Notes under the pieces: model-generated | The model's database searches: none | What the model was told of the DNA's origin: nothing | What the model saw: only the letters and a program-made list of their open reading frames with translations | Part shown: in pieces, positions 1 to 44,795 of the stretch | Layout: each line of letters begins with the position of its first letter | How positions within the stretch are numbered: position 1 is the first letter of the stretch | Assembly (NCBI GenBank): GCA_937930845.1 | Contig: CALHBJ010000007.1 | Location: 186,001-250,000, forward strand | Reading direction: 5' to 3' | Length of the DNA stretch: 64,000 nucleotides | From: an uncultured Rhizobiaceae group bacterium | GTDB lineage: Bacteria; Pseudomonadota; Alphaproteobacteria; Rhizobiales; Rhizobiaceae | Translations under genes and position numbers: made by a program

Positions 1-3000
1 AGCGAATATTGCGAAGCTCTCGTCCCCAGTCACGACGACTGCGCCGTCCTGAACCAGGGTCACGTCACCGCCATTTCCTGAATTGGCCGTAGACGTGGTT
101 TCCGTAACATAATCGGAATCTCCATCATGGAACGACGCACCGCCGCCGCCGCCAATGGACTGCATGAAGATGCCGTGGGCACGTTTGCCATCTGTTGCCA
201 CAATGCCTGTATTTGTCAGTTTGACAGGACCACCATCGCCGCTGGCACCGTTTTGACCACCAATGAATACATTGAGCGGAGCACCATTGGTTTCGGTCAT
301 AGCAACACCACCACCGCCACCAATACTCTGCAGCACAATCGCACTGGCATTGTCGCCGCTCATGATCGTGTTGCCGGTTTTGGTAATATTCACGGCATCG
401 CCGTCATTGGCTGCTCCGCCATTGGAACCCAACGTAATGTCGATGGGCGGCAATGCCGGTGCGAGAAGCGCAACGCGAGTGCGGCTAAATTGACGTGTGT
501 CCTGCGCCGCAGCTGATGAAAACTCCGATGGAGCCGTCAGCGCACGGGCAAACAGAACAGTCGTTGGCGTAGATGTGCCAAACGTCTGCTGACCGCCGCC
601 GCCACCGATGGATTGAGCCAGGATACCCAAGCCTTGTGCACCCTGGATCCCAATATTGCCTTTGACTGTCTGCGTGACCGATTTGCCGGATTCGCCAGAA
701 CCATTGGACCCGCCAAGGCCAAGTTCAACCGCACCTAATTCACCGTCATCTGTATCAACCTTGATCGTTGACCGACCACCGCCACCGCCGATGCTCTGAA
801 GCAGAACACCTTGAGTGTTGGCACCCTGTGCAGCCACATCGCCGGTGTGGCCACCGGTGATCGCAGCACCCTCGTTGCCGGAACCGTTGGAACCGCCAAG
901 TTTGGATTTGATGGCAAGCGGAGCCGAAGCTTCACCGGCTGTCTGGGCCAGTTTGATGGCAGAGAGCGACGTGCCACCACCGCCACCAATTGCCTGAATG
1001 CTGTTACCGGTATTGTTATCGCCGGTCAGACCAAAAGTCCCCGTGCTTGTCACACTCACCGCACCGGCGCTGTTATTTGTCGTACCTTCCGCACCGGAGA
1101 TGATCTGGAGAATTGGCGCTGTTGTTGTAGGGATAAGAGGGCCAACAACCGGCAAAGCCGAACCGCCAGGAATGGCCGTGATGCCATTGAGGTCCATGAC
1201 AAGACCGCCACCGCCGCCATTGATGCTTTGGGCTTTGATCGCCTGTGAACCTTCGCCAACAACCGTGATGTCGCCGGAATGTTCAACAGTCACGTTGCCT
1301 GCAAGGCCACCCGTGCCGCCACCGACAGCACCCAGTGCCGCCGAAAGCGTGTTGGCGATCAGGGTTGGCACCGGATCGGATGTACCAATCCCAAGGCCAA
1401 GGCCCGCATTGCCGCCACCGCCGCCGATGGACTGGGCCAAAATGCCGTAACTGTTCTTGCCTTCGGTTCTGATTGTGCCGGTGTTGACGACCTTCACATC
1501 GCCCGCATCTTCACCCGAACCGCCAAACCCACCAACACTGAGCAAAGGTGTCGTTGCATCGCCACCCTTGGCCAATATGGCATTGATGGACATAACGAGA
1601 CCGCCATTGCCGCCGCCGCCGCCAATCGACTGGGCGAACACGCCGTGGGAACCTTCGCCCTTGGTCAAGATAGCGCCGTTATTGGTCACGCTGACCTTAC
1701 CGGCTGTGCTGCCGCTGCCGCCTTTGCCACCAATATTGAGACCCGCCAACAGGCTGTCTTTTCCACCAGCAACATTCAGCGTGAGAACAGCACTGCCGTT
1801 ACCGCCACCGCCACCGATGGACTGGGCAAAAATGCCATGGGCATCCTTGCCGTTCGTCATGATCGAACTGCCAGTCTTGTTGTTGACCGTCACATCACCA
1901 GATGTGCCTCCGGTCCCACCGTTGCCACCGATATTGATGCTAAGTTTATTGGCTGATTTCCCGCCTGCTGGCTTGGAAATCGCTATATTGGCCAAAAGGC
2001 CGCCATTGCCACCGCCGCCGCCAATCGACTGGGCGCGGATACCATGGGAACCCTTACCTGTTGTGTTGATTGCCGCCGTATTATCCACAGTGACCGCACG
2101 GCTGAAACCGCCGCTGCCGCCAGTGCCACCGACACCAAGGTCAAAGGAATTGCTGTTTTGACCACCGGCAACCGACCCGATAATCACCAGCCCGCCATCG
2201 CCGCCACCGCCACCAAGGGACTGGGCATTGATGCCGATAGAATCGTCTTTCTTGGTCGTGATATTGCCCGTGCTGTCGACCTTGACGGCCTCAGCTTCCG
2301 CGCCTGAGCCGCCATTGCCCCCCACAGAGACGGTCGCAGAACTCGAGCCGTTTGCAGAAGCACCGCCAGCCTGAAGTGCAACGGTTGCAGCATAGCCACC
2401 CGTGCCACCGGCTCCACCGATGGATTGGGCGGAAATGCCGTGGGATTTTTCCTCATTGGTGGTGATTGCAGCCGAGCTGATCACATCAACCTTACCGGAT
2501 TTCGCCCCCGTGCCGCCGTCGCCGCCAATACCAACTTTTGCTGATGCGCTTTCCTGGAAGATGATGCTTGTCACAGCACCACCAACACCGCCACCGCCGC
2601 CAACGCTTTGGGCGTGGATGCCGTGGGATTCTGATCCGCTTGTCGAAATGGTCCCACCGGCGGTGACTTTCACATCACCGGAGAAACCGCCGGAACCACC
2701 TTCGAGACCAACAGCCAATTGCGCGCCGCTTGCTTTTGCGGATTCGCCTTCACCGCTGGAGCTTGACACACCAACCGTGGTCGCGCTGCTCAAGCCGCCG
2801 CCATTGCCCACACTTTGGGCAATGATGGCCGATGCGGAATCGCCCACCGTTGTGAATATGCCATTGGCATCAACAGTAACATTACCGGCAGAACCGCCTG
2901 TGCCGCCCTTGCGTCCGATACCAATATCCAGTGATTTGCTGGTCGACAGGTTGAGCACCATGCTCAGCTTGGTGCTGCCACCACCACCACCAACAGACTG

Positions 3001-6000
3001 GGCAATGATCGCAGATGAACCTTCACCTGAAGTCGTGATGTTTCCGGTATGATCGACAACAACATCGTCGCCTGTGCCACCATCGCCTGTGCCGCCACCG
3101 ACAGCCAGGTTGAAGGCTTTCGCATCCTTGTTGAAACCACCACCAATATTGTAGTTGGCGTTGCCGCCACCTCCGCCGATGGATTGCGCAAGAAGGCCAT
3201 CAGACTGTTCGCCCGTTGTGACAATTTCACCCTTTTGTGTGACTGTAACTTTTGAGCCATCGCCAGATGCACCGCCGGAACCGCCCACGGCAATCACAAC
3301 AGACTGCCCCTCGCCTTCATTGGCCTTGCTGGCCGAAAGCACAATATTGACACCGGCATCACCGCCACCGCCGCCAACAGACTGCGCTGTAAGACCGTTT
3401 GCGCCACCGCCGATTGTTTCCAGTTTGGCCTGTTCAATCAAACCGCGATTGACCACAACTTCACCCGCATTGCCACCGGCACCACCGGAGCCACCAACAC
3501 CGGCAGAGATGGGCTTGCCATCTTTGGTAAAGGCACCAGACACATTCATGCCGCCAACACCGCCACCGCCGCCAATGGACTGAACAAGCACGCCATTGGC
3601 GCGATCTTTAAAGCTGGTTTCGGGTGAAGTGAGAGGTGAGCTTTCCAGTGAACCATCGGATTCGCGCTTGCCATTCACGGTGATGGCACCATCGCTGTTG
3701 AGGGTCACTTTCTTGGAATCCGCACCAGTGCCGCCTTTGCCACCAATGCCCAAAACGGCCGTATAGCCTTTGCCTGCGGCAAGGTTGCCGGAAACGTTCA
3801 GCCCCCCTGCACCACCGCCACCGGCGACAGATTGCGCAAGCACACCAATGGATTCCACGCCGGACACGTCAACCGTCCCCTTTTGTGTTGCATCCACAAT
3901 GCCACTGACATTTGCCGCGCCGCCAGCGCCACCCAATCCGAAAACCAATGATGGGTTTTTAGATTGCGTGCTGGCCAGAATACCACCGCTGATATTGATG
4001 GCACCATCGCCACCCCCGCCACCGATGGACTGGGCCACAAAGCCCCGTGATCGCACACCAGTTGCCGTAATATCGCCTTCCACATTGGCAAGAACTTTCT
4101 TGCCTTCGCCAGCCGCTCCACCAGAGCCGCCAACACCGGCAGTCACCGAACCATCCATGGTGATGCCACCGGACACATTAAGGCCACCATTACCGCCGCC
4201 GCCGCCGAGGCTTTGGGCGATAACGGCTGATTTACCGACACCATTGGCAACGATCCTGCCTTGTGATGTCACAACACCATTGGTTTCAACACGTTTGGAC
4301 ACAACTTTCAGATCAACTTCGCCCGCATCGCCACCGGCGCCACCGAAGCCACCGATTCCAAGGGTCAAGCCATAATTGCCACCACCACTTGGCGAACCGA
4401 CTGAGATTCCGCCCGATACATTGACCCCGCCATTGCCGCCACCGCCGCCAACGGACTGGGCAACAATGCCGTTGGAACCAAGGGGGGCCAACAGGGGCTC
4501 AAGGGCGGCAAGTGTGCCGGCGAGGCCAACAACTTCGCCTGTCGCAATCACATCGCCCGTCACGCGGCCCTTCACGTTACCGGCTGTACCGCCGGTTCCG
4601 CCAAATCCGCCAACACCGACTGTCAATGTGGCTGACGTGCCTGATGCAGTGGCTGCAATACCGCCACTCACATTCACCGCGCCGTTGCCGCCGCCACCAC
4701 CAAGGCTCTGGAAGGTCACACCGTCGGATAATATGCCTGTTGTTTTTGTGTTGCCGGAACGTGAGAAATCCACATCACCGGCATTGCCGCCGGTTCCGCC
4801 AAATCCACCAATACCGATTGAGCCTGCTGCCGAATTGCTTGTGCCCAGCGTGAGCGTACCGCTGACATTGACGCCGCCATTACCGCCACCGCCCCCAACG
4901 GACTGGGCCATGACACCAAATGAACCGGCACCGGAAGTCGATACCTGACCGTCAACCTTGCCATCCACTTTGGCACTATTGCCGCCACCGCCGCCAAACC
5001 CGCCAACACCGATACCTAAAGAACCGCTTTGCTTGGACAGGGAAACCACGCCGGTGACGTTGAACCCGCCATTGCCGCCGCTGCCGCCAAGGCTTTGCGC
5101 CAGAGCGCCGTAGGAACCGGCCTTCTGGGTGGTGATGTCACCGGTTGAGTTGGACGTGACATTGCCGGCATTGCCGCCACCGCCGCCAAAACCACCCACA
5201 CCCACGCCAAGGTTGCCAGCACCTTTAGCAGATGCGGCCAGACCAGCCGTGACATTGAAGCCCCCATTGCCGCCACCGCCACCAACGGACTGAACAAGCA
5301 GGCCATTGCTGTTGTGATTTGCTGTTGTGATGTCGCCTTTAATGGTTGAGATCGCGCGACCACCCAGGCCGCCCGCACCGCCAAAGCCGCCCACACCAAC
5401 ACCCACATTGCCCGAACCTTTGCCCGCAGCAGACAGATTGCCCGTGACGTTAAATCCGCCATTGCCGCCACCGCCGCCAACAGACTGAACGATGACGCCA
5501 TCAGCATCTTTACCTTCAACGGAAACATTTCCGGTCAGATCCAGTTCTGCCTGACCACCCTTGCCGCCGCCGCCGCCAGAACCGCCAACACCTACACCAA
5601 TTGTGCCTGCGCCTGTGCCGGATGCCGCCACATTGACTGTGACGTTAAAGCCGCCATTGCCGCCGCCACCGCCAACGGACTGGACGAAGACACCATCGGA
5701 ATCCACGCCTTCCGTTTTGATCTCGGCATCGGAGCCTGTATCACCTTTGATTTTTGCAGTGACCTTGCCACCGTCTTTACCGTCGCCGCCGGAACCACCA
5801 ACGCCTACCGAAATCGAAGCTGCGCCCTTGCCCGCTGCTGAAAGCGTGCCGGAAACATTAAAGCCGCCATTGCCGCCACCGCCGCCGATGGACTGGGCAA
5901 CAAACGCCTTGGCGCGGTCGCCTTGGGTTGTGATATTGCCAATATGGTCAGCCTGGACTTCACCGCCCTTGCCGCCGCCGCCGCCAGAACCGCCAATGCC

Positions 6001-9000
6001 CACGGATGCGCCCACGGCACCCGTGCCGCCAGCCGTCAGCGCACCGCTGACATTGAAGCCACCATTGCCGCCACCGCCGCCGACGGATTGAGCCAGGAAT
6101 CCTGCCGCATCGGCACCTTTTGTAATAATCGTGCCCTGCGTATCGGCATTGACGAGCTTGCCTTCGCCGCCGCCGCCGCCGGAACCGCCAACACCAACGG
6201 ATACACCGCCAGCACCCGTGCCAGCACCTGTGAGGATTGCGGCCACATTAAAGCCGCCATTACCGCCGCCACCGCCAAGGCTTTGGGCAACAAAGCCATC
6301 TGAGCCGCGCTTGTTTGTGGTGATATCGCCAACAACACCGGCAGTCACATTGCCGCCACTGCCGCCATCACCACCAGCACCGCCAACGCCGACAGATACG
6401 GCACCAGCCCCTGTACCAGCGCCGGAAAGCGCGCCAGAGACATTAAATGCGCCATTACCGCCGCCGCCACCAAGGCTTTGGGCCAGGAAACCATCGGAAT
6501 CCTCGCCTTCAGTTGTGGAATTACCAATGAGTTTGGCTGTTACGGTGTTACCCACTCCGGCCTTACCACCAGAACCGCCAACGCCCACAGAAACAGCACC
6601 TGCACCCGTACCAGCGCCCGACAATGTGCCACTGACATTGAAAGCGCCGTTACCGCCGCCGCCGCCAACAGATTGTATCGTTGCCGCATTCGAACGGTCA
6701 CCTTCGGTGCGCAGATTGCCCGTGATCGTGCCAATAACGACACCACCATTACCCGCGCCGCCGCCTGAGCCGCCGACACCTGCAGATACGGCACCCGCCG
6801 CAGTGCCCGCGCCAGCAACGGAACCGGATACATTAAACCCGCCATTGCCGCCGCTGCCGCCGACCGCCTGAATGAGAACACCGGTGGAATCCGATTGCTT
6901 AGTCGTGACATTGCCGTTGTAGACGGTATCAACCTTACCGGCACTGCCGCCCTTACCGCCCGTACCACCAACACCGACTGCCACAGCCAACGCTGCGGTA
7001 TCCGACCCCGCTGCTGCAACGGATACAGACGTGCCGCCATTGCCGCCGCCGCCGCCAACACTTTGGGCGATCAGGCCTTCTGAAAGAGCACCATCCGTGG
7101 TGATGGAACCGCCGGAGCGCAATGTAACATCGCCCCCCTCACCACCGTCACCACCCGAGCCACCAACACCGACTGAAAGTGAGCCGGAAAATACCAGTCC
7201 CGCAGATGCTGCAACGGAGATAGATGCACCACCGTTACCGCCGCCGCCGCCGACACTTTGCGCCAGAACACCATCGGAGTTCAGCCCCTCGGTTGTCACC
7301 GCGCCATTGCCGTTGATCGCAACCTTGCCGCCATCGCCGCCTTTACCGCCGCTGCCACCGACAGCCACGGAAACAGCGCCAAACGCGCCAACAGCAACGG
7401 AAGTTGCAAAACCACCATTACCACCACCGCCGCCGACAGATTGGGCAAAAATACCATTGGAACGGTCGCCTTCTGTTTTAATCAGCGGGTCAATCTGTTG
7501 CGAAGCACCGCCAATGGTCACAGTACGCGGATTCAGATTGATCGTTGTCTGACCGCCCTTACCGCCATTGCCGCCTTTGCCACCAACAGCCACGGAAACA
7601 AAGGCGCCTACAGCAACCGCACTGCCGCCATTGCCGCCACCGCCGCCAACGGACTGGGCAAAAATACCACTGGAATCATTTTTGGCAGTCGTAATCCGGC
7701 CAGCATTGGTTGCCGTCACCAAACCACCGTCACCGCCACCACCGCCGCCGCCGCCAACGGCAACGAGGCCGCCAGTGGACCCGCCATCACCGCCACCGCC
7801 GCCGATGGACTGGACCTGAATGCCGTGGGAGACATTGCCATCCGTGTCGATTTGGCCCTTGTTTTCCACAGTCACCGTGCCGCCATTGCTGGCCACACCA
7901 CCGCTGCCGCCAATCGCAACAAGGCCACCACCATCACCACCAGCGCCGCCGCCGCCGCCGATGGACTGGGCAAGAATACCGCGTGATTTCGCACCCGCCG
8001 TTTTCAGCGAGCCTTCATTCAAAACATTCACCGCAGCGCCCGTACCGCCAACAGTTCCCTTACCGCCCAGGGCGACAAGCCCACCGCTGGACGAACCGGA
8101 GCCGCCACCGCCGCCAATGGACTGGGCATAAATCGCGTCGCCGCCTGCCTGTTTCGTTTCAATACCGCCGAAATTGCGCACGGTAACCGCGCCGCCATTG
8201 CCGCCTTCACCGCCGCCGCCGCCAAGCGCCACTAGACCGCCGGTGCCGGAAGCTGAACCGCCACCGCCGCCGATGGACTGGGCCATCACACCCTTGGCCT
8301 GCGCATTAGTCGTTGTGATCTGACCGCGATTTTCCACCAGGACAACGCCGCCATTGCTGGCTTTGCCACCGCTCCCGCCAATGGCAGCAACACCACCGCT
8401 GACACCAGCCGAACCTCCGCCGCCGCCAATGGACTGGGCGTGGATACCGTGCCCCGATACACCACGCGTTTCGATGGACGAACCAGCCTGGGTTCGAACG
8501 GTCACATTGCCGCCATTGCCGCCGCGACCGCCTTTTGAGCCAAAGGACGCAATGCCCGCAGCGAAACCGCCATTACCGCCACCGCCACCGACGGATTGGG
8601 CAAAAATACCAACGGAACCGGTGCCTGACACCAGTATCGACCCACCCGCATTATTATTGACAGTCACCGAACCGCCAGAGCCACCGCCCGCGCTTGAATT
8701 GTTGCCGCCAAACGCAGCAATGCCGCCGGCATTGCCAGCATTACCGCCCGTGCCACCAATGGACTGGGCCTGAATGCCATGGGCAAACACGCCCTGGGTT
8801 TCAATGCCGCCGGAATTGGTCACTCTGACGGTTCCGCCATTGCCGCCAACACTGCCGCTGTTCACATTGCCCACAATACCGTAGCTGTCGCCGGAACTGC
8901 CGCCACCGCCACCGATGGACTGGGCAAAAATGCCGTTCGCACCGAAATTCGTTGTTTTGATTTTACCGGTATTCGTGACAGTAACATTGCGACCCGCACT

Positions 9001-9897
9001 TGCCGGGCCACCAACACCACTGCTCGACAAAATATAACCACCACCGCCATTGCCGCCCTTACCGCCCCGGCTCTGGGCAAATATGCCATGGGACCCAACT
9101 CCGCTGGTGGAAATTTCAACCGATGAATTTACGGTCACATTGCCGCCAAGGCCGGCCTTACCGCCATTCAGCGGCGGCAGAGCTCCGTAAGAATCGCCAC
9201 CATTGCCGCCATCACCACCCTTGCTGACAACAGTGATGCCAGGAAGTCCATTGGAAACACTTTGAATATTACCATTGCCGCCAACGGTGATGTTTCGGGT
9301 TATCGTCGGGCCATTGCCCCCGGCGCTGCCCGGGCGACCGCTGCGGCCAATCGTGAAACATTTGATAATGCAGACTTCGACACCATAGCCATTTCGGCCA
9401 TTATTGCCGCGCGAGCCAACCCGGCTATCAGCAACAACATTCACATTGCCTGCGGGAATTGGAATATTGACCGGCCCACCGGCATTGCCGCCGGTATCCG
9501 GGTTACCGGCACTGGGATCGCTAAATTCCCGGGCCGTTGGCTCCATGCGAATTGTTGGGGGCGTGCCGCCATCCGACATGGTCAGCGAAATAATGCGCGG
9601 CGGTGTGCTGGAGTCTGTGGTAACAGCAGTTACCGTATAAGTGTCGCCATCCAGAACATATGTATCCCCCACATCGGTGTTCACCAAAATGACATTGTCA
9701 TTATTCGTGAGTGCCGAACCGCCATCAATTTGAATGATTTCTTCGCTCGCGCCGGTCAGCGGATTGACGATTGAATCGCCGACCATTTGAGCAAGCCCCG
9801 CACCGGGAATAAATGTGGCCGACATGGCCAACAGCGCCAGAGACCATTGAACTTTCTTAATACGGTGAAAGTTCGAGCGATCGATAAATATAGCCAT
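1..9897 (-). CDS. Giant glycine-rich repeat adhesin (autotransporter-like), 3' end beyond the window
   Basis: The minus-strand frame starts at ATG 9897 and stays open to base 1, at least 3299 codons. Motifs checked at 9078, 1827, 618, 333 and 165 are all in the same frame, so I see no frameshift. A GGGGA ribosome-binding site lies 6 nt upstream. Residues 1-36 look like a long signal peptide (basic start, hydrophobic LALLAMSATF, cleavage likely after GLA). Residues 37 to about 270 are non-repetitive. The rest is about 47 units with the core AQSIGGGGG, often followed by NGGFNVSG and G-rich stretches such as GIGGSGG. Giant rhizobial autotransporters with such units end in a beta-barrel; here that end would lie left of base 1, so the autotransporter class is inferred. 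Probable role: surface adhesion or biofilm. It could instead be a non-autotransporter secreted giant. Confidence 0.8.
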   Translation of the reverse strand, partial: MAIFIDRSNFHRIKKVQWSLALLAMSATFIPGAGLAQMVGDSIVNPLTGASEEIIQIDGGSALTNNDNVILVNTDVGDTYVLDGDTYTVTAVTTDSSTPPRIISLTMSDGGTPPTIRMEPTAREFSDPSAGNPDTGGNAGGPVNIPIPAGNVNVVADSRVGSRGNNGRNGYGVEVCIIKCFTIGRSGRPGSAGGNGPTITRNITVGGNGNIQSVSNGLPGITVVSKGGDGGNGGDSYGALPPLNGGKAGLGGNVTVNSSVEISTSGVGSHGIFAQSRGGKGGNGGGGYILSSSGVGGPASAGRNVTVTNTGKIKTTNFGANGIFAQSIGGGGGSSGDSYGIVGNVNSGSVGGNGGTVRVTNSGGIETQGVFAHGIQAQSIGGTGGNAGNAGGIAAFGGNNSSAGGGSGGSVTVNNNAGGSILVSGTGSVGIFAQSVGGGGGNGGFAAGIASFGSKGGRGGNGGNVTVRTQAGSSIETRGVSGHGIHAQSIGGGGGSAGVSGGVAAIGGSGGKASNGGVVLVENRGQITTTNAQAKGVMAQSIGGGGGSASGTGGLVALGGGGGEGGNGGAVTVRNFGGIETKQAGGDAIYAQSIGGGGGSGSSSGGLVALGGKGTVGGTGAAVNVLNEGSLKTAGAKSRGILAQSIGGGGGAGGDGGGLVAIGGSGGVASNGGTVTVENKGQIDTDGNVSHGIQVQSIGGGGGDGGSTGGLVAVGGGGGGGGDGGLVTATNAGRITTAKNDSSGIFAQSVGGGGGNGGSAVAVGAFVSVAVGGKGGNGGKGGQTTINLNPRTVTIGGASQQIDPLIKTEGDRSNGIFAQSVGGGGGNGGFATSVAVGAFGAVSVAVGGSGGKGGDGGKVAINGNGAVTTEGLNSDGVLAQSVGGGGGNGGASISVAASAGLVFSGSLSVGVGGSGGDGGEGGDVTLRSGGSITTDGALSEGLIAQSVGGGGGNGGTSVSVAAAGSDTAALAVAVGVGGTGGKGGSAGKVDTVYNGNVTTKQSDSTGVLIQAVGGSGGNGGFNVSGSVAGAGTAAGAVSAGVGGSGGGAGNGGVVIGTITGNLRTEGDRSNAATIQSVGGGGGNGAFNVSGTLSGAGTGAGAVSVGVGGSGGKAGVGNTVTAKLIGNSTTEGEDSDGFLAQSLGGGGGNGAFNVSGALSGAGTGAGAVSVGVGGAGGDGGSGGNVTAGVVGDITTNKRGSDGFVAQSLGGGGGNGGFNVAAILTGAGTGAGGVSVGVGGSGGGGGEGKLVNADTQGTIITKGADAAGFLAQSVGGGGGNGGFNVSGALTAGGTGAVGASVGIGGSGGGGGKGGEVQADHIGNITTQGDRAKAFVAQSIGGGGGNGGFNVSGTLSAAGKGAASISVGVGGSGGDGKDGGKVTAKIKGDTGSDAEIKTEGVDSDGVFVQSVGGGGGNGGFNVTVNVAASGTGAGTIGVGVGGSGGGGGKGGQAELDLTGNVSVEGKDADGVIVQSVGGGGGNGGFNVTGNLSAAGKGSGNVGVGVGGFGGAGGLGGRAISTIKGDITTANHNSNGLLVQSVGGGGGNGGFNVTAGLAASAKGAGNLGVGVGGFGGGGGNAGNVTSNSTGDITTQKAGSYGALAQSLGGSGGNGGFNVTGVVSLSKQSGSLGIGVGGFGGGGGNSAKVDGKVDGQVSTSGAGSFGVMAQSVGGGGGNGGVNVSGTLTLGTSNSAAGSIGIGGFGGTGGNAGDVDFSRSGNTKTTGILSDGVTFQSLGGGGGNGAVNVSGGIAATASGTSATLTVGVGGFGGTGGTAGNVKGRVTGDVIATGEVVGLAGTLAALEPLLAPLGSNGIVAQSVGGGGGNGGVNVSGGISVGSPSGGGNYGLTLGIGGFGGAGGDAGEVDLKVVSKRVETNGVVTSQGRIVANGVGKSAVIAQSLGGGGGNGGLNVSGGITMDGSVTAGVGGSGGAAGEGKKVLANVEGDITATGVRSRGFVAQSIGGGGGDGAINISGGILASTQSKNPSLVFGLGGAGGAANVSGIVDATQKGTVDVSGVESIGVLAQSVAGGGGAGGLNVSGNLAAGKGYTAVLGIGGKGGTGADSKKVTLNSDGAITVNGKRESDGSLESSPLTSPETSFKDRANGVLVQSIGGGGGVGGMNVSGAFTKDGKPISAGVGGSGGAGGNAGEVVVNRGLIEQAKLETIGGGANGLTAQSVGGGGGDAGVNIVLSASKANEGEGQSVVIAVGGSGGASGDGSKVTVTQKGEIVTTGEQSDGLLAQSIGGGGGNANYNIGGGFNKDAKAFNLAVGGGTGDGGTGDDVVVDHTGNITTSGEGSSAIIAQSVGGGGGSTKLSMVLNLSTSKSLDIGIGRKGGTGGSAGNVTVDANGIFTTVGDSASAIIAQSVGNGGGLSSATTVGVSSSSGEGESAKASGAQLAVGLEGGSGGFSGDVKVTAGGTISTSGSESHGIHAQSVGGGGGVGGAVTSIIFQESASAKVGIGGDGGTGAKSGKVDVISSAAITTNEEKSHGISAQSIGGAGGTGGYAATVALQAGGASANGSSSATVSVGGNGGSGAEAEAVKVDSTGNITTKKDDSIGINAQSLGGGGGDGGLVIIGSVAGGQNSNSFDLGVGGTGGSGGFSRAVTVDNTAAINTTGKGSHGIRAQSIGGGGGNGGLLANIAISKPAGGKSANKLSINIGGNGGTGGTSGDVTVNNKTGSSIMTNGKDAHGIFAQSIGGGGGNGSAVLTLNVAGGKDSLLAGLNIGGKGGSGSTAGKVSVTNNGAILTKGEGSHGVFAQSIGGGGGNGGLVMSINAILAKGGDATTPLLSVGGFGGSGEDAGDVKVVNTGTIRTEGKNSYGILAQSIGGGGGNAGLGLGIGTSDPVPTLIANTLSAALGAVGGGTGGLAGNVTVEHSGDITVVGEGSQAIKAQSINGGGGGLVMDLNGITAIPGGSALPVVGPLIPTTTAPILQIISGAEGTTNNSAGAVSVTSTGTFGLTGDNNTGNSIQAIGGGGGTSLSAIKLAQTAGEASAPLAIKSKLGGSNGSGNEGAAITGGHTGDVAAQGANTQGVLLQSIGGGGGRSTIKVDTDDGELGAVELGLGGSNGSGESGKSVTQTVKGNIGIQGAQGLGILAQSIGGGGGQQTFGTSTPTTVLFARALTAPSEFSSAAAQDTRQFSRTRVALLAPALPPIDITLGSNGGAANDGDAVNITKTGNTIMSGDNASAIVLQSIGGGGGVAMTETNGAPLNVFIGGQNGASGDGGPVKLTNTGIVATDGKRAHGIFMQSIGGGGGASFHDGDSDYVTETTSTANSGNGGDVTLVQDGAVVVTGDESFAIFA
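150..9078 (-). repeat. About 47 tandem coding repeats centred on AQSIGGGGG
   Basis: The core codons (read on the minus strand as gcc-cag-tcc-atc followed by a run of ggc/ggt) recur from about 9078 to 150. Between 7.6 and 0.6 kb the step is mostly 190-210 bp, about 65 residues. Between 9.08 and 7.63 kb it is about 155-165 bp, about 53 residues. A typical long unit reads AQSVGGGGGNGGFNVSG, then a Gly/Ala stretch with SVGIGGSGG, then a short V-rich strand and a GNITTQGDRAK-like link. Some copies are diverged: QSIN, LQSI, IQAI, and AQSR at the N-terminal end. Confidence 0.9.
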
Positions 9898-10496
9898 GAT
9901 AGTCCCCAATGCATCCCGGCTGCGTCATTGCCTGAATTAAAAAAGAAATTCAGACAGCCGAAAGCTGTGCAAATTATTCATGCCCCTGAATGACCTAGAA
10001 AACAGTATTACAACAAAAGCAATAGAATTATTGTATGTACATGGTTGTTTAGAGTCATTTATGCATTATTATCACACATTCCCTAGGGTAAACTGTGATT
10101 TTTCTCACAATTAGAACTCGGATTCTAGAAATACATAACGAAATAAAACAACAATGCGAAACGCCCGATTCTCGCCACAAATTAAACATCCCCCGCCCCA
10201 TTTTTTGCACATTTATACGGGGGATTATGGACAAGTGGGTCAGTTCCGAACACCTTGCTGAGGACCAGGCGTTGAAGCGGCCAAAAAGGCCAGTACAGGG
10301 AATTTCGGGTTTGTTGAGTAGCCGGAGCATCGGCGAACCACCCTGGATACTGGCAGGGATAAATGCGCGCGCACGGACCGTACATTTGGTGAACTAATAG
10401 GGGGATTTCACCCCACCCGATTTTTCACAAAGCGCGTTTCGTTTAATAGGATGCACTGAAACGCGCTCGAGCGCTCTTTTGATTGCGGGTCTGCTT
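9898..10496. other. Upstream region of the giant adhesin, no supported gene
   Basis: This AT-rich stretch precedes the adhesin start. It contains an inverted repeat CTGAATT/AATTCAG at 9932-9938 and 9947-9953, and a small hairpin ACAGC/GCTGT at about 9955-9969, both in the presumed 5' leader. Short open frames occur on both strands between 10055 and 10400, but they overlap each other, show no family motif and lack good ribosome-binding sites, so I do not call them genes. The adhesin promoter should lie here, but I cannot place it. Confidence 0.5.
10431..10467. repeat. 10-bp perfect inverted repeat
   Basis: AGCGCGTTTC at 10431-10440 pairs with GAAACGCGCT at 10458-10467 around a 17-nt spacer. 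It lies just beside the broken end of the IS remnant and is not followed by a clear T-run. It could be a terminator relic or another element's end. Confidence 0.6.
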
Positions 10497-10649
10497 CGCC
10501 GCCCATCGCGAAATGTGATCGCCCTCATGGTCCAAAACCATGCGAACCGAACGCTCGCGAACTTCAGGTGAATATCTGTTCGTTGTTTTGTTTGTCATTG
10601 CTCTATCCTAGTCAGGAGTTAGAGCCTCCGGCAAACAAGGGGCGGTTCA
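10497..10649 (-). mobile_element. IS3-family remnant: terminal repeat plus start of transposase OrfA
   Basis: On the minus strand, ATG at 10598 opens [20 protein letters not shown], then [13 protein letters not shown], the typical N-terminus of IS3-family OrfA (helix-turn-helix subunit). The match fades at about 10497; the frame then continues into unrelated sequence, so nearly all of OrfA and all of OrfB are lost. Upstream of the ATG, on the minus strand, TGAACCGCCCC followed by TTTGCCGGAGGCT at about 10649-10615 looks like the left terminal inverted repeat of this family. The family call rests on my recognition of the N-terminus and the terminal repeat. Confidence 0.8.
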
Positions 10650-11573
10650 GAATGGGACTGGGCAACGGAGACCATCAAGGCCAGCGGCATCGTCGCATCA
10701 ACAGGCCGGACACAGGACGGTATCTGACCAGTATTCGAAGATCACATTAGAACTTGCATTACCGGAGCCATCCACACAGGAATCATTGGGAGACCCACGC
10801 CAGGGTTCTTTGCTCAGTCTGGTTGCTATCACCATTCTCTAGCCAGACCTTTTTGAGAATGCGTTTGTCATGGATCAGGTCATGCAAAAACATGAACTGT
10901 CGGGAAACCCAAATCAGCGCGTAGGACTCCTTGAAGTGTACATGACGAGCGAATTTGTGAACTTACAGGAATATGACGCATATTTTGCGCGTTTGAGGCG
11001 ATTTTGGGATCAAAATACGCTCCGACAATAGTCTTCTAGTACCCTCAGATGTAATCTGGAACCAATACCCCATCTAGTGATATTTTTCCGTTTTGACCCC
11101 ACCTGAGCCACCCGGCATTTTGACATTGGATCATCGATCAATGGCCGATAGAAAAATAATACCATTTTCATTTCTTCAAATCACCCATTCGAAACAAAGT
11201 GACCATAAACGTAAGCCAAACGTGGGGGAGCATGTTCGAAGTTAATGAAGATACCTAGGGCGAAATACACAGAATCCGCTTCGCCAAAGACGAATATTGC
11301 AATTCTTTAGCAGTCATAAGAAGCCAATCAATTTGGTCGACTGCTCGTCAGGAGTCCTGCGCCCTATCCTGCAGAGCCATGGGGCCTTTGATTTTTTGAC
11401 TGGCAAAGCGATGGGGTTGTTGCCACCGAAATGTGCTGGTCGGGATTGCCAAGATGTTTAGCAATCTAGTGATCTCGTGGAAACTTCATTGCCCCGGGAC
11501 GTTCTTGTGGGCACAACTGATGCGGAGGCGCGTCGTTTGGTGCCACAGGCCCTTAATTCATCCGTGGGATTCA
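10650..11573. other. Gene-poor debris region between IS remnant and autotransporter
   Basis: I find no convincing gene here. A plus-strand frame at 10870-11031 (53 codons, MDQVMQKHELSG...) and an opposite frame across 10790-10950 (about 50 codons with HDLIHDKRILKKVW) are each too short and unrecognised. Together with the adjacent IS fragment, this suggests decayed or rearranged DNA. Confidence 0.5.
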
Positions 11574-11596
11574 GGAGCGCGATTTTGACGCGCTCC
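11574..11596. terminator. Hairpin downstream of the autotransporter
   Basis: GGAGCGCG (11574-11581) pairs with CGCGCTCC (11589-11596) around a 7-nt loop, 15 nt past the autotransporter stop codon. There is no long T-run on the minus-strand side, so it may act as a weak terminator or an mRNA 3'-end stabiliser. Confidence 0.6.
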
Positions 11597-11610
11597 TTGT
11601 TTCCTCACGC

Positions 11611-18533: not shown

Positions 18534-18550
18534 GTAGGAGCAAAAAAGTG

Positions 18551-19084
18551 ATGTCGAATAGTGATTTAGTTAACAATCTCGCCGTTTTGTGCCTCGCTTC
18601 ATGTGTTTCGATGGGCATTTCCAATTACGCACATGCGCAATCGGCAAAGGAGGCAGATCAACAGCCTGGATGGACGGTGAATTGTGCAAGCGGGCCAGAG
18701 CTGAAAAATCTGCAATGCCTGATGGCTCAGGAAATTCACCTGCGCCAAACAGGTCAGCGCCTCGTTCGCATGCAGGTCAATCTTACAGCGGAAACGCAGC
18801 AACCATTTGTCACAATCAGCCTGCCCCACGGCGTGCTGTTCGGCCAGGGCATTGCTCTGCAAATTGATAAGGGCGAAACCATTACCCTTCCCATCAATTC
18901 AGGAGATCAAAACGGCAGCTACGTGAGACAAAAGCTCGATAAGTCATTGTTGGATGCCTTGCGCGGCGGAAAACTCGCCTCGCTCACCATGACCACGCTT
19001 AACAAGCAAAAATTGAAGGTGGGTATTTCACTTGCAGGGTTTTCCAAGGCTTTGGATATGGTCTTCGGTGCCGAGAAACTTTAG
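18551..19084 (+). CDS. IalB-family (invasion-associated locus B) secreted protein
   Basis: A 177-residue protein with an N-terminal signal sequence (hydrophobic LAVLCLASCVSMGIS, cleavage near AHAQS). The mature part starts GWTVNCASG, continues with a Cys pair (NLQCLMAQE) and ends in a beta-rich domain with LPHGVLFGQGIALQID, the pattern of the IalB family. These periplasmic proteins were named for a Bartonella factor linked to erythrocyte invasion; in free-living relatives the role is uncertain. ATG 18551 is preferred over the adjacent GTG 18548 because AGGAG sits 9 nt upstream. It is divergent from the large autotransporter and shares its upstream region. Confidence 0.85.
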   Translation: MSNSDLVNNLAVLCLASCVSMGISNYAHAQSAKEADQQPGWTVNCASGPELKNLQCLMAQEIHLRQTGQRLVRMQVNLTAETQQPFVTISLPHGVLFGQGIALQIDKGETITLPINSGDQNGSYVRQKLDKSLLDALRGGKLASLTMTTLNKQKLKVGISLAGFSKALDMVFGAEKL

Positions 19085-19159: not shown

Positions 19160-20515
19160 TTGGAAGCTGAGAACAAAGGGGAGCCAAGTCCGGCGGCGAC
19201 GCGTGCGCTCAGTATAGTCCAAATGGTTTCCTATGCCTTCCTGACGCTGCCCATCGCCATGGGCGGACTTGTTCTGGTCCTCTTTCTGCCAACCTATTAT
19301 GCCGTTGAATTGGGTCTTGGCCTCACCACTGTGGGGCTGATCATTGGCGCAGGTCGCATCATAGATGTTGTCACTGATCCGTTGATCGGTCGTTGGAGCG
19401 ACAACACCAAATCCCGCTGGGGACCGAGAAGGCCATGGGTCTTGTTGGCCATGCCGCTCTATTTGATATCAGTTTGGTTTTTCTTTCTCCCGCCACAAAG
19501 TGCTGGGCTGGTGTACCTTATCGTCGCCAGCAGCGCCTACTTTCTGTTTTATACCGCGTTTGATGTGCCCTATTCATCCGTCGGTCTGGAGATTTCTCCG
19601 CATCTGCACGAGCGCACGGACGTTGCCAGCATGCGCGCTGCATTTCAGGTTTTAGGCGCCTTGTTGGCGGCCATTTTGCCTGTTGTATTGCATTTGAACG
19701 GTGCCCAAGCGCTCACGGTCATCGCCTACACATTGACGGCTACTGCCCTATTGGGCCTGGCACTGTTTTGGTATGGGGTACCGGTTTACAATCGAACCAC
19801 ACCGGGACCACGGCCATCACTTTTAGTAGCGTTCAAGACGGCCTTACGGGAACCGGGATATCGGAGTCTCATCACCGCCTTCATGTTGGTTCAGGCCGCT
19901 AACGCCTTCCCAGCTGCTTTGATGGTACTCTTCGTGACCAAGATCATTCAGGCCCCTGCCCTCGTCAACCTATCGCTCATGATTTTGATCGTAACCTCAG
20001 CGCTGTTTTTACCGCTTTGGATGTTCTTGTCCCGTAAAGTCGGAAAGCGGAAAACATGGATGTCATCCATCGTCGCTTGCAGCATAGCCTTGGCTTTCGT
20101 TCCTTTTCTGGGAGCGGGAGATACAACTGCATTTTTAATCATTTGTGTATGCCTTGGCGCTGCATTTGGTTGCGATACGATCATGCCCACATCCATGCTG
20201 GCCGACATTGTCTACCGCACTGAATTGCGCGGCGAGAACCGGTTTGGCGGCACATTCCTTGCTGCCAAGAATTCTGTTTCGAAAATGGCATTTGTGGCGC
20301 CCTTGCTGCTGGCATTCCCAATTCTGGACCTTGTTGGGTTCGATGCCAAAGGCAACAATGGAGAGAACCAGATGCTTACTTTAGCCCTGTTCTTTGGTCC
20401 GGTTTCGATCTGTTTGAGGGCGCTGACGTTCTTGATTTTAACCCGAACTGAGGACATTGAAGGAGCGATTGGTACATATCAATCGGCTAAAGAATATGAC
20501 CCAGCCATCGGTTGA
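19160..20515 (+). CDS. GPH-family sugar:cation symporter (MelB-like MFS)
   Basis: About 451 residues with twelve predicted membrane segments. The family signature is clear in the first half: GRIIDVVTDPLIGRWSDNT followed by SRWGPRRPWVLLAMPL, the cation-site loop of glycoside-pentoside-hexuronide symporters. Further on are DVPYSSVGLEIS and CDTIMPTSMLADIVYRTELR, also typical. The start is uncertain: GGGAGGGAG at 19143-19151 implies TTG 19160 (or TTG 19157) rather than the upstream codon at 19139. It likely imports a glycoside with Na+ or H+; the substrate cannot be read from sequence. The 3' end overlaps the kinase gene. Confidence 0.85.
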   Translation: MEAENKGEPSPAATRALSIVQMVSYAFLTLPIAMGGLVLVLFLPTYYAVELGLGLTTVGLIIGAGRIIDVVTDPLIGRWSDNTKSRWGPRRPWVLLAMPLYLISVWFFFLPPQSAGLVYLIVASSAYFLFYTAFDVPYSSVGLEISPHLHERTDVASMRAAFQVLGALLAAILPVVLHLNGAQALTVIAYTLTATALLGLALFWYGVPVYNRTTPGPRPSLLVAFKTALREPGYRSLITAFMLVQAANAFPAALMVLFVTKIIQAPALVNLSLMILIVTSALFLPLWMFLSRKVGKRKTWMSSIVACSIALAFVPFLGAGDTTAFLIICVCLGAAFGCDTIMPTSMLADIVYRTELRGENRFGGTFLAAKNSVSKMAFVAPLLLAFPILDLVGFDAKGNNGENQMLTLALFFGPVSICLRALTFLILTRTEDIEGAIGTYQSAKEYDPAIG

Positions 20516-22217
20516 ATTTCACGACCTGGCTGACCTGCGGGCTGAACAGGCAAAACTGCTGAACAGGGGTGCCAAATCTTCTGCAATCCCGGTGCTCTTT
20601 GTGATTGTCAATAGCAGCATTTTGCTCCTGTTAACCGGTCACGGCACACCCACTTTCATTTGGACAGGCCTCGCTTTGCTTATGGTCGGTGCAACACTGA
20701 TTTATCCAAGGCTCAATCCCGTTTTCACAATAACCCGGGAGAGAGCGCCTCGGTATCTATTTGGGCACGTCGCCATCACGGCTGTTACCGGCTTGGTCTG
20801 GGCATTTTGTTGCCTGTTTCTTCTTGATGTGACCAGCCGCGTCAGCCTGACGGTTTGCCTGCTCGCCCCCTGTTCCATCACACTCGGCGGGTTGTTTCCA
20901 TCGTCGATATACAGACCGGCCTATATTGCCCTTGCAGCAACAGCGCTTTTACCCGTGGCCATCTATCTTATATTTGCTGACGATTGGGCGGTGACGTTTT
21001 CGGGTATCGGCATCCTTGCTTATTTCGGGTTTGGCATGTTCAGCAGCGCAAAAACCGAAGTGGCGATGCGCGATACCCTTATCGCCAGACTTCAAAACTC
21101 TGCCTTTGAAACCATTTCCGAGAAAAACAAGCAGGTGGAAAGTTTACTAGAGGAGAACACCCGCTTTATTGCCGCCATCAGTCACGACCTGGTTCAGCCC
21201 ATACGCGCTGCAACCAATTTTGTAACCCTGCTCAAACAGACAAAACTGACTCCAAGCCAAGCTGAGCTTATCGACAAGCTGAACATGACACTCCAAAGCC
21301 AAGGCGTCCTTTGGAAGGACCTTCTTGAACGCAGCACACTTGATAAATACGAGCTGACGCCTTCAATCGAACATCTGAAATTAGCCGACTTATTGGCCGC
21401 CACGACCTCTGAGTTTGAAGCCTTGGCGCATATGCGCGGTATCTCGTTTGACGAGAAGTTGGGCGATTACCATGTGCATTGCGATGCGACGATGCTGGAC
21501 CGGATTGTTCGCAATCTTTTGTCGAACGCGGTGAAATACACACAACCCGGTGGCTGGGTAAAACTGGCCGCTGAGATGAAGGATGACAAGATCGTCCTCT
21601 CGGTATCCGATAACGGTCCCGGCATTCCCGAAGAACAACAAACGCGCGTTTTTGAAGAGAAAGTACGGTTGCAAGCGACCCGGAACCAACCGGGCCTGGG
21701 CCTTGGTCTTCACATCGCCAAAAGTCTCGCTGAAGCACTGGGGGCACCAATTATGCTACAGTCAAAACCAGGAGCTGGAACATCCGTCCTACTGACCTTG
21801 GCGAACGCTGAAAACGCCGAACCTGAAAATCTACAAACTGTTTTGGTTATCGGTAATGCCCAACATAAGATTTATGGCGAATGGATGCCTATGCTTTCTT
21901 CCTGGAAGATGAGAGCCGTTCAGGCGCGAAACCTTAAGGAAGCGGGGCAACTTATCGACTTGTTGGGCGAAACACCGCAGGTGATCTTTGTCAGTGCTGA
22001 GTGCTTTGAAGAAAATGAATATCCATGGGACGATCTGGCAAGGCTGAGCGAGGGCTTCAACGCTGCACCCATGCTCTATTTGGAAACAGTCACCAAAATA
22101 CCGGAATACTTCTCTGATCGAATGGCACAGGCAAAAGTGCCCGTTGAAGTTTCAAACACGCCTATAAAGGCGGCGGAATTGCGACTGCTGTTTAATTCCC
22201 ACGCCAGTCAGCAATGA
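20496..22217 (+). CDS. Membrane histidine kinase with degenerate C-terminal receiver
   Basis: A 573-residue inner-membrane sensor kinase. Residues about 30-190 form five or six membrane segments with no periplasmic sensor domain. A short coiled coil leads to the H-box FIAAISHDLVQPIRAATNF, with the phospho-accepting His at about residue 230, then the N-box RNLLSNAVKYT, G1 DNGPGIP and G2 GLGLGLHIA. The last ~120 residues resemble a receiver fold, but the acidic pair is lost (VLVIGNAQ), the phospho-Asp position reads FVSAEC and the Lys position reads VEVSNTP, so it should not be phosphorylated. ATG 20496 overlaps the symporter end by 20 nt; a TTG at 20457 is possible. It converges on the response regulator, its likely partner. 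Confidence 0.85.
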   Translation: MTQPSVEFHDLADLRAEQAKLLNRGAKSSAIPVLFVIVNSSILLLLTGHGTPTFIWTGLALLMVGATLIYPRLNPVFTITRERAPRYLFGHVAITAVTGLVWAFCCLFLLDVTSRVSLTVCLLAPCSITLGGLFPSSIYRPAYIALAATALLPVAIYLIFADDWAVTFSGIGILAYFGFGMFSSAKTEVAMRDTLIARLQNSAFETISEKNKQVESLLEENTRFIAAISHDLVQPIRAATNFVTLLKQTKLTPSQAELIDKLNMTLQSQGVLWKDLLERSTLDKYELTPSIEHLKLADLLAATTSEFEALAHMRGISFDEKLGDYHVHCDATMLDRIVRNLLSNAVKYTQPGGWVKLAAEMKDDKIVLSVSDNGPGIPEEQQTRVFEEKVRLQATRNQPGLGLGLHIAKSLAEALGAPIMLQSKPGAGTSVLLTLANAENAEPENLQTVLVIGNAQHKIYGEWMPMLSSWKMRAVQARNLKEAGQLIDLLGETPQVIFVSAECFEENEYPWDDLARLSEGFNAAPMLYLETVTKIPEYFSDRMAQAKVPVEVSNTPIKAAELRLLFNSHASQQ

Positions 22218-22236: not shown

Positions 22237-22851
22237 TTACCACGTTTTCGTCAGCCCGAGAGAAGCTGCCTTTTGAACACATTCAACGCGGTTGCGCACA
22301 CCCAGAACCGAATAGATATTTTTCAAGTGGGTTTTGACCGTGTTCTCACTGATCTTTAGTTGATTTGAAATATCGCCATTGCTGGCGCCGGTAGTCAGAA
22401 GCTTCACGATTTCCAGCTGACGCGGTCCCAGATTTTCGGCCGCTACAGTCTGAATTTTACGTCGACGGCTTTTGAGACCCAGCAGATCTTCAATTGCATT
22501 CGATAGTTCCAGAAAATCGTCGCCTTTGTGTACAAAGCGGTCTGCGCCGGCTGCAAATGTTTCCACATCGGACAGAGCTTTATCAACACCTGAAACGATT
22601 ACGACAGGAAAAGAATATCCCTTGTTTCGAAGGGACTTAACAAGCATGAGGCCGTTCATTCTTGTCATGCTTAGGTCAGTGATAACGAGATCAAATCTGG
22701 TGCCAGAATCCATGGATTGAAGGAGTTCAACACCATCACTGAATGCAACAGTCTGAATGTTTTCGCCCATATTGTCGATGAGTTGCGTCATCCCTGCAAG
22801 GAACAACGCATGATCATCAACCACAGCAATTCTCTTGGATGCAGCAGCCAA
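22237..22851 (-). CDS. NarL/LuxR-type response regulator
   Basis: A 204-residue two-component regulator. The receiver domain (about 1-125) has the acidic pair VVDDH, phospho-Asp59 in VITDLSM, and the Lys in FVHKGDD. The C-terminal LuxR helix-turn-helix (about 140-200) reads LGPRQLEIVKLLTTGASN and SENTVKTHLKNIYSVLGV. The start codon is TTG 22851 with GGGGG just upstream. It is convergent with the kinase, 19 nt apart, which suggests a cognate pair. A CACCCGAAAGGGTG palindrome 76 bp upstream of the start, shared with the ialB locus, may be its own operator (inference). Confidence 0.9.
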   Translation of the reverse strand: MAAASKRIAVVDDHALFLAGMTQLIDNMGENIQTVAFSDGVELLQSMDSGTRFDLVITDLSMTRMNGLMLVKSLRNKGYSFPVVIVSGVDKALSDVETFAAGADRFVHKGDDFLELSNAIEDLLGLKSRRRKIQTVAAENLGPRQLEIVKLLTTGASNGDISNQLKISENTVKTHLKNIYSVLGVRNRVECVQKAASLGLTKTW

Positions 22852-44508: not shown

Positions 44509-44795
44509 ATATTTGATCTCCAGTCAGCGAAGCCCCCCACAATGGCTTCTGGATGACCGCCCTAAGGATCAAAACGTTCAATGGGCGATGAACGAGTCCA
44601 GATTTACACTAATAGTTGATGATTGCAATATGAATTTAATACACCCATGGGTTGTTTAATAAGGATGTGCTGGTGCCAGCCAAAGAAGGGAAATTCACAC
44701 AGCAGTGACAGAAATTATTGCCCAGGCATTTGCGTTTGCGAAATAAGCACCTTATGTCCTGCGCCCAGTCTGAAACACGTCAGCAGCTTCACTTC

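Follow-up and report, generated by a model that had tools for sequence, protein, structure and literature searches.

What kind of protein is encoded by a gene that fills the first 9.9 kb of this DNA with one glycine-rich repeat, how old is its repeat array, and how might so long a product leave the cell? The window analysed here (the whole stretch of 64,000 nt, G000:C7:186001-250000) begins inside a minus-strand frame that runs without a stop through positions 1..9909, with a likely ATG at 9897, so that 3,299 codons lie within the window. An earlier note made from the letters had described one unbroken frame of at least this length, with about 47 AQSIGGGGG units and a 3' end beyond the left edge, and each of these statements held. 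With the sequence left of the window added, the gene closes about 1,980 bases left of base 1 and encodes 3,958 aa (G000:C7:184021-195897, which is L010:2021-13897(-)), of which 1,038 are glycine; the motif AQS[IVL]GGGGG matches 48 times, 47 times in the window and once just outside, at its left edge. Within the same genome, the first 2 kb of the window have 25 matches at the DNA level, every one inside the giant gene.

Extending the gene leftwards to look for a C-terminal barrel, as the note had proposed, revealed one: the C-terminal 359 aa match PF03797 (E=1.6e-33, 117 bits against a cut-off of 26). This match appeared when the C-terminal part alone was searched; a Pfam scan with the whole 3,958-aa protein as query gave no PF03797 match. 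The N-terminus, read by eye, is basic and then hydrophobic up to GLAQ. In common with classical autotransporters (type Va, PF03797) the protein has a long passenger, a C-terminal barrel and a terminal Phe, and it begins with a putative signal-like segment; unlike them it is built from an AQS/GGX unit, is very long, and has a passenger repeat that no Pfam or NCBIfam model matched in our scans. Judged by its sequence, it is a classical type Va autotransporter, and by analogy with its family the passenger would be exposed at the cell surface. Longer frames occur elsewhere: one of 6,790 aa with a barrel match in a same-genus genome (G001:C15:9040-9744), and an autotransporter-like one of 7,133 aa from a Desulfuromonadaceae MAG (L163, G065:C152), whose 5,438 aa examined contain 54 AQS motifs.

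Table. Features of the giant autotransporter locus (window positions unless another contig is named)
Feature	Position	Strand	Basis or remark
Giant autotransporter gene, N-terminal 3,299 codons	1..9897	-	frame reading and closure outside the window
Remainder of giant gene: motif 48, linker, beta-barrel	about 1,980 bases left of window	-	same gene
Signal-peptide-like N-terminus MAIFIDRSNFHRIKKVQWSLALLAMSATFIPGAGLA	9790..9897	-	read by eye
N-terminal passenger before unit 1	9079..9789	-	start VGDxxxNPxTG... also present in the orthologs from Hoeflea and the Rhizobiaceae-group genome; identity about 40% over the first 200 aa
Units 1-9, short class (51-56 aa)	7660..9078	-	motif spacing
Units 10-45, long class (61-95 aa, mode 65)	334..7659	-	motif spacing
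Units 46-47, short class (56 and 54 aa), then motif 48 at the edge	4..333	-	motif spacing
Modelled block, 52-aa class (296 aa)	7615..8502	-	AlphaFold, pLDDT 95.4, pTM 0.89
Modelled block, 65-aa class (361 aa)	5854..6936	-	AlphaFold, pLDDT 91.4, pTM 0.87
Second large autotransporter, 2,248 aa	11611..18357	-	PATR repeats and PF03797; upstream neighbour, same strand as giant gene
First IalB gene	G000:C7:183401-183919	-	PF06776, E=4.9e-24; outside window, about 100 nt downstream of giant gene
Second IalB-family gene	18548..19084	+	PF06776, E=8.3e-25; divergent from second autotransporter

The spacing of the motifs divides the array into 47 intervals, of which units 1-9, 46 and 47 measure 51-56 aa and all others 61-95 aa. 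The two size classes that had been described are real, in that the lengths have modes at 65 aa (11 units) and 52 aa (6 units), but they are not clean, as outliers of 78-95 aa occur among the long units. Units are 41% identical on average over all pairs and 49% between neighbours, and Tandem Repeats Finder (TRF) marked no more than two short patches within the frame; the array is therefore old. Exact DNA repeats within the gene reach 37 bp at most, so that an assembly collapse at the repeats, which the note had named as a danger to its reading along with a stop inside the frame, is unlikely and was rejected.

Comparison with other genomes points the same way. Searching 61 genomes with the C-terminal part gave matches in 13, own genome included. 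None of 14 same-genus genomes had a close counterpart in this C-terminal search, and one of them gave weak matches (best E=1.4e-8). Two close orthologs were recovered, one of 3,808 aa in an uncultured Rhizobiaceae-group genome (L161; 63% overall identity) and one of 3,626 aa, its first codon unsure, in Hoeflea poritis (L162; 64% overall identity); neither has a stop in its frame. When units were assigned to their best matches, runs of 44 of 47 and 47 of 47 units kept their order (shuffled mean 11), reciprocal best matches were found for 43 and 41 of the 47 own units, and unit length was the same for 40 of 47 in each ortholog. All three genomes open with lengths of 51, 52, 56, 54, 52 (five times), 71, 61 and 65 aa, and later share the series 84 or 83, 81, 61, 66, 84, 66, 66, 62, 61, 69, 61, 68, 64, 69, 64 and 66. 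The totals are 47 own units, 44 in the Rhizobiaceae-group genome and 41 in Hoeflea. Most of the variation in copy number falls in a single central stretch of 65-aa units (own units 12-24), which has 13, 11 and 8 members respectively; one further unit of difference arises where an ortholog interval of 143 or 139 aa, its motif unrecognised, corresponds to two own units (95+56). With unit order and lengths conserved across three genomes, the array is thus, on these alignments, an old, fixed series of individual units and not a freely expanding one, and the two expansion phases that the size classes had suggested were not borne out, being rejected by this colinearity. The same divergent gene, for a protein of about 560-575 aa, adjoins both orthologs (L161:2452-4179(-) and L162:15490-17175(+)); an exact 16-aa string of this protein is absent from the window, L009 and L010.

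The repeat has no counterpart in the profile libraries searched. Pfam and NCBIfam returned no family on the AQS units with the in-window protein (E up to 1) or with a 703-aa repeat block (E up to 10), nor did Pfam with the whole giant protein (E up to 10); neither PATR, TIGR02601 nor any other Pfam or NCBIfam repeat profile was found on the units. Among 60 five-unit blocks from family members there were single-member matches only, at E 0.05 or worse. Against PDB sequences, the giant protein (E up to 1) and a 65-aa profile (E up to 10) had no match, and a 52-aa profile had 34 (best E=0.0019, a ketoreductase domain), which we judged to be chance matches on glycine-rich stretches. A motif scan of genome contigs nevertheless found at least 119 stretches with the repeat. 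Among the matches listed, 117 of 119 carry at least three motifs in one frame, and by record titles most belong to Alpha-, Beta- and Gammaproteobacteria, with a few of Deltaproteobacteria type, from a Planctomycete (Singulisphaera) or other. Where the 3' end is visible (n=51, again among the matches listed), an HMM built by us from 28 barrels detected a barrel in 41 and the last residue is Phe in 44, so AQS units are, as a rule, passenger repeats of autotransporters. A back-translated peptide search with the 703-aa block found no relatives, and repeat units yielded no tblastn match on plasmids, probably through the low-complexity filter, because three plasmid loci found via the C-terminal part do carry the motif.

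In a literature search of mainly openly accessible papers, no paper on the AQS motif, or on autotransporters together with polyglycine II, was found; among the best matches of wider searches, no title or displayed abstract concerned the AQS repeat, and the word glycine is absent from two surveys of autotransporters. As far as these searches show, a known secretion system carries a passenger repeat undescribed by motif. A relative already described may be the AoaA protein of Azorhizobium caulinodans (Suzuki et al. 2008, named in PMC9289746), like the giant protein a rhizobial autotransporter, from a group with passengers of up to 3,333 aa; AoaA may or may not carry AQS repeats.

The note had also suggested predicting the structure of several consecutive units, and for five 65-aa units (60-row alignment) and five 52-aa units (9 rows) AlphaFold returned a solenoid with the scores given in the table. 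Each AQS unit is predicted to form a solenoid layer of three core strands accompanied by two GGX glycine tracts. In the 65-aa model pLDDT is 96-99 for the core strands and about 80-90 for the glycine tracts and the strand pair; in the 52-aa model the glycine tracts reach about 90-98. At E<=0.001, Foldseek gave no match for either model against the PDB or for the 52-aa model, the one submitted there, against BFVD (best E 0.008), so the fold is as predicted by AlphaFold. The best PDB match of the 65-aa model was the FapC amyloid (E=0.002, TM about 0.1), and that of the 52-aa model a springtail antifreeze protein of nine polyproline-II helices (7jjv; probability 0.66, target TM 0.40). The likeness to 7jjv is non-significant (E=0.065) and has no sequence match behind it in the PDB searches. 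The antifreeze protein has glycine triplet periodicity and is not known to contain a beta-solenoid core.

Independently of any model, glycine in tract 2 is autocorrelated at lag 3, with z=9 over the 47 own units and z=51 over 1,708 other units. This GGX triplet periodicity is the one expected of a polyglycine-II bundle, since PMC13243192 lists GGX as the motif both of polyglycine II and of PPII bundles rich in glycine. The polyglycine-like glycine cores that the earlier note had imagined are supported by the periodicity, and the top, though non-significant, fold match of the 52-aa class is a PPII-bundle antifreeze protein; the tracts themselves would pack as polyglycine II.

How such a passenger might be exported is suggested by its neighbours, since IalB-family genes flank both large autotransporters of the locus. 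The IalB downstream of the giant gene scores over the family profile cut-off and matches a solved IalB structure (3dtd_A, E=5.3e-6). Between the two autotransporter genes, the roughly 1.7 kb at 9910-11610 hold no open frame of at least 150 aa. Near the cluster lie a histidine kinase gene (20457-22217(+)) and a convergent gene for a LuxR-type response regulator (22237-22851(-)), which are possible candidate regulators of the autotransporters.

The presence of IalB beside both autotransporters prompted a test of adjacency in other genomes. In 36 of these, IalB lies within 2.5 kb of 5 of 11 autotransporter frames of at least 1,700 aa and of none of 78 shorter ones (Fisher p=1.1e-5), many of the latter being short or weak barrel matches (42 of 78 are at least 700 aa). 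In held-out genomes, where an HMM made from 23 sequences of the family served to detect IalB, it lies within about 2.5 kb of 6 of 20 giants against 0 of 20 ordinary autotransporters (p=0.010), the giants being all those of at least 1,700 aa among the matches listed, outside our own genome and G040, and the controls the first 20 of 900-1,300 aa among the matches listed, matched for neither passenger type nor genome; 5 of the 40 stretches end at a contig end (giants L187, L193, L196 and L198; control L222). All six linked IalB genes are on the same strand as their giant, three downstream and three upstream. The other 14 of the 20 giants have no adjacent IalB, four of the 20 stretches ending at a contig end. 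Pfam confirmed all six linked IalB genes submitted to it.

A further count used AQS loci fetched blind to IalB. Among the matches listed, 37 loci offer at least 900 nt downstream; an IalB gene directly follows on the same strand in seven and was not found there in 30. By record titles, these are 7 of 24 alphaproteobacterial loci and none of 13 others (among the matches listed): three from Paracoccus, two from Ruegeria, one from Mesorhizobium and one from a Hyphomicrobiales MAG. The order is reversed in Oceanicella sp. SM1341, which is not among the 37 and has IalB directly upstream of the AQS frame (L134:5852-6406(-)). IalB directly follows the Hoeflea poritis ortholog, and an HMM search found none beside the Rhizobiaceae-group one. 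Of the three plasmid loci examined, that of Ruegeria sp. SCSIO 43209 carries an annotated AQS protein (40 motifs) and IalB 18 nt apart, and those of Martelella mediterranea and Roseibium algicola have no IalB beside them. Three f5 genomes carry seemingly orthologous giants with IalB, two of them being held-out matches; given these shared giants, and the three Paracoccus and two Ruegeria loci among the seven, the linked matches are not all independent. IalB is present in all 37 genomes searched, own included, so the linked copies look like extra paralogs. In a tree of 40 IalB sequences (16 unlinked ones hand-picked; L023, L028 and L134 unlabelled) linked copies cluster, with 7 label changes against a shuffled mean of 13.6 and none of 500 shuffles as low; they do not form one clade and represent at least several lineages.

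IalB has been reported beside the trimeric adhesin genes batA of Brucella and badA of Bartonella, and PMC7688925 and PMC8859334 leave the relation between the two open: the former doubts an operon for batA and ialB, the latter suggests one for IalB and the trimeric adhesin gene. As in those systems, an IalB-family gene here directly adjoins the gene of a large surface autotransporter (the same direction being reported for Brucella); unlike them, the autotransporters here are classical type Va and occur in several other alphaproteobacterial genera. From this linkage we propose that IalB assists the export of giant autotransporters as their partner in the periplasm. Many giants have no IalB beside them, so it may not always be needed or may be encoded elsewhere.

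Together these results make it probable, in our view, that the giant gene encodes a type Va surface filament, an AQS solenoid with polyglycine-II-like tracts that serves as stalk or adhesin and is exported with the aid of IalB. Sec export and barrel insertion are established for the type Va family. The giant protein would accordingly enter the periplasm by Sec and have its C-terminal barrel inserted into the outer membrane, while its passenger, about 3,300 residues long, would be threaded out and fold outside, unit on unit; we infer an extracellular filament because of family membership and the predicted solenoid. Each unit would contribute a short three-stranded solenoid core (VxV..., IxT, GIxAQS) with two GGX tracts beside it as polyglycine-II-like strands; the 52-aa class would add a single short strand between the tracts, the 65-aa class two. 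A passenger of this length probably requires assistance in export, and the product of the adjacent IalB-family gene would be its periplasmic helper. Most likely the product of the giant gene is a stable stalk or adhesin at the cell surface that serves attachment or aggregation, with a presumably adhesive or protective role.

It is rather unlikely that this is instead an ordinary autotransporter adhesin, one in which flexible glycine loops surround a plain right-handed beta-helix while IalB is an incidental neighbour. The passengers of most autotransporters do fold into a beta-helix, as stated in the abstract of PMC5895577, beta-helix proteins are numerous among the lower Foldseek matches of both models, and both the lower pLDDT of the glycine tracts and strand pair in the 65-aa class and the doubt about a batA/ialB operon fit such a reading; the well-predicted tracts of the 52-aa class, the strict GGX phase, the many invariant or near-invariant columns of the tracts and the recurrence of IalB linkage across several lineages all speak against it. 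Far less credible is a recently expanded, drifting or partly collapsed array, perhaps phase-variable: copy number does differ among the three orthologs, yet unit identity is low, exact repeats are short, order and lengths are conserved, and all three frames are free of stops.

The filament reading that we prefer has a stronger form, which we offer only tentatively: the AQS unit may be a composite layer, of a kind new to solved structures, in which a beta-solenoid rung and polyglycine-II strands are stacked in register, and IalB a general periplasmic export partner of classical and trimeric giants throughout Alphaproteobacteria. Both beta-solenoid and polyglycine-II lattices repeat at about 4.8 A. 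Composite layers would make a short, thick and very stable filament, by arithmetic about 23 nm long at one layer per unit against about 60 nm for a plain beta-helix. The locus matters in several ways: the family libraries searched contain no entry for a repeat that occurs in many Proteobacteria; its solenoid is predicted with confidence and resembles no solved structure significantly; a bacterial surface filament would mix two sheet types, should the glycine tracts be polyglycine II; and the IalB linkage, whose meaning the two adhesin papers leave open, becomes a testable idea outside pathogens, namely that IalB proteins may serve to export giant adhesins. Elsewhere in the window, an imperfect 18-bp repeat of about three copies (47295-47347) lies inside the open frame 44718-47408(+).
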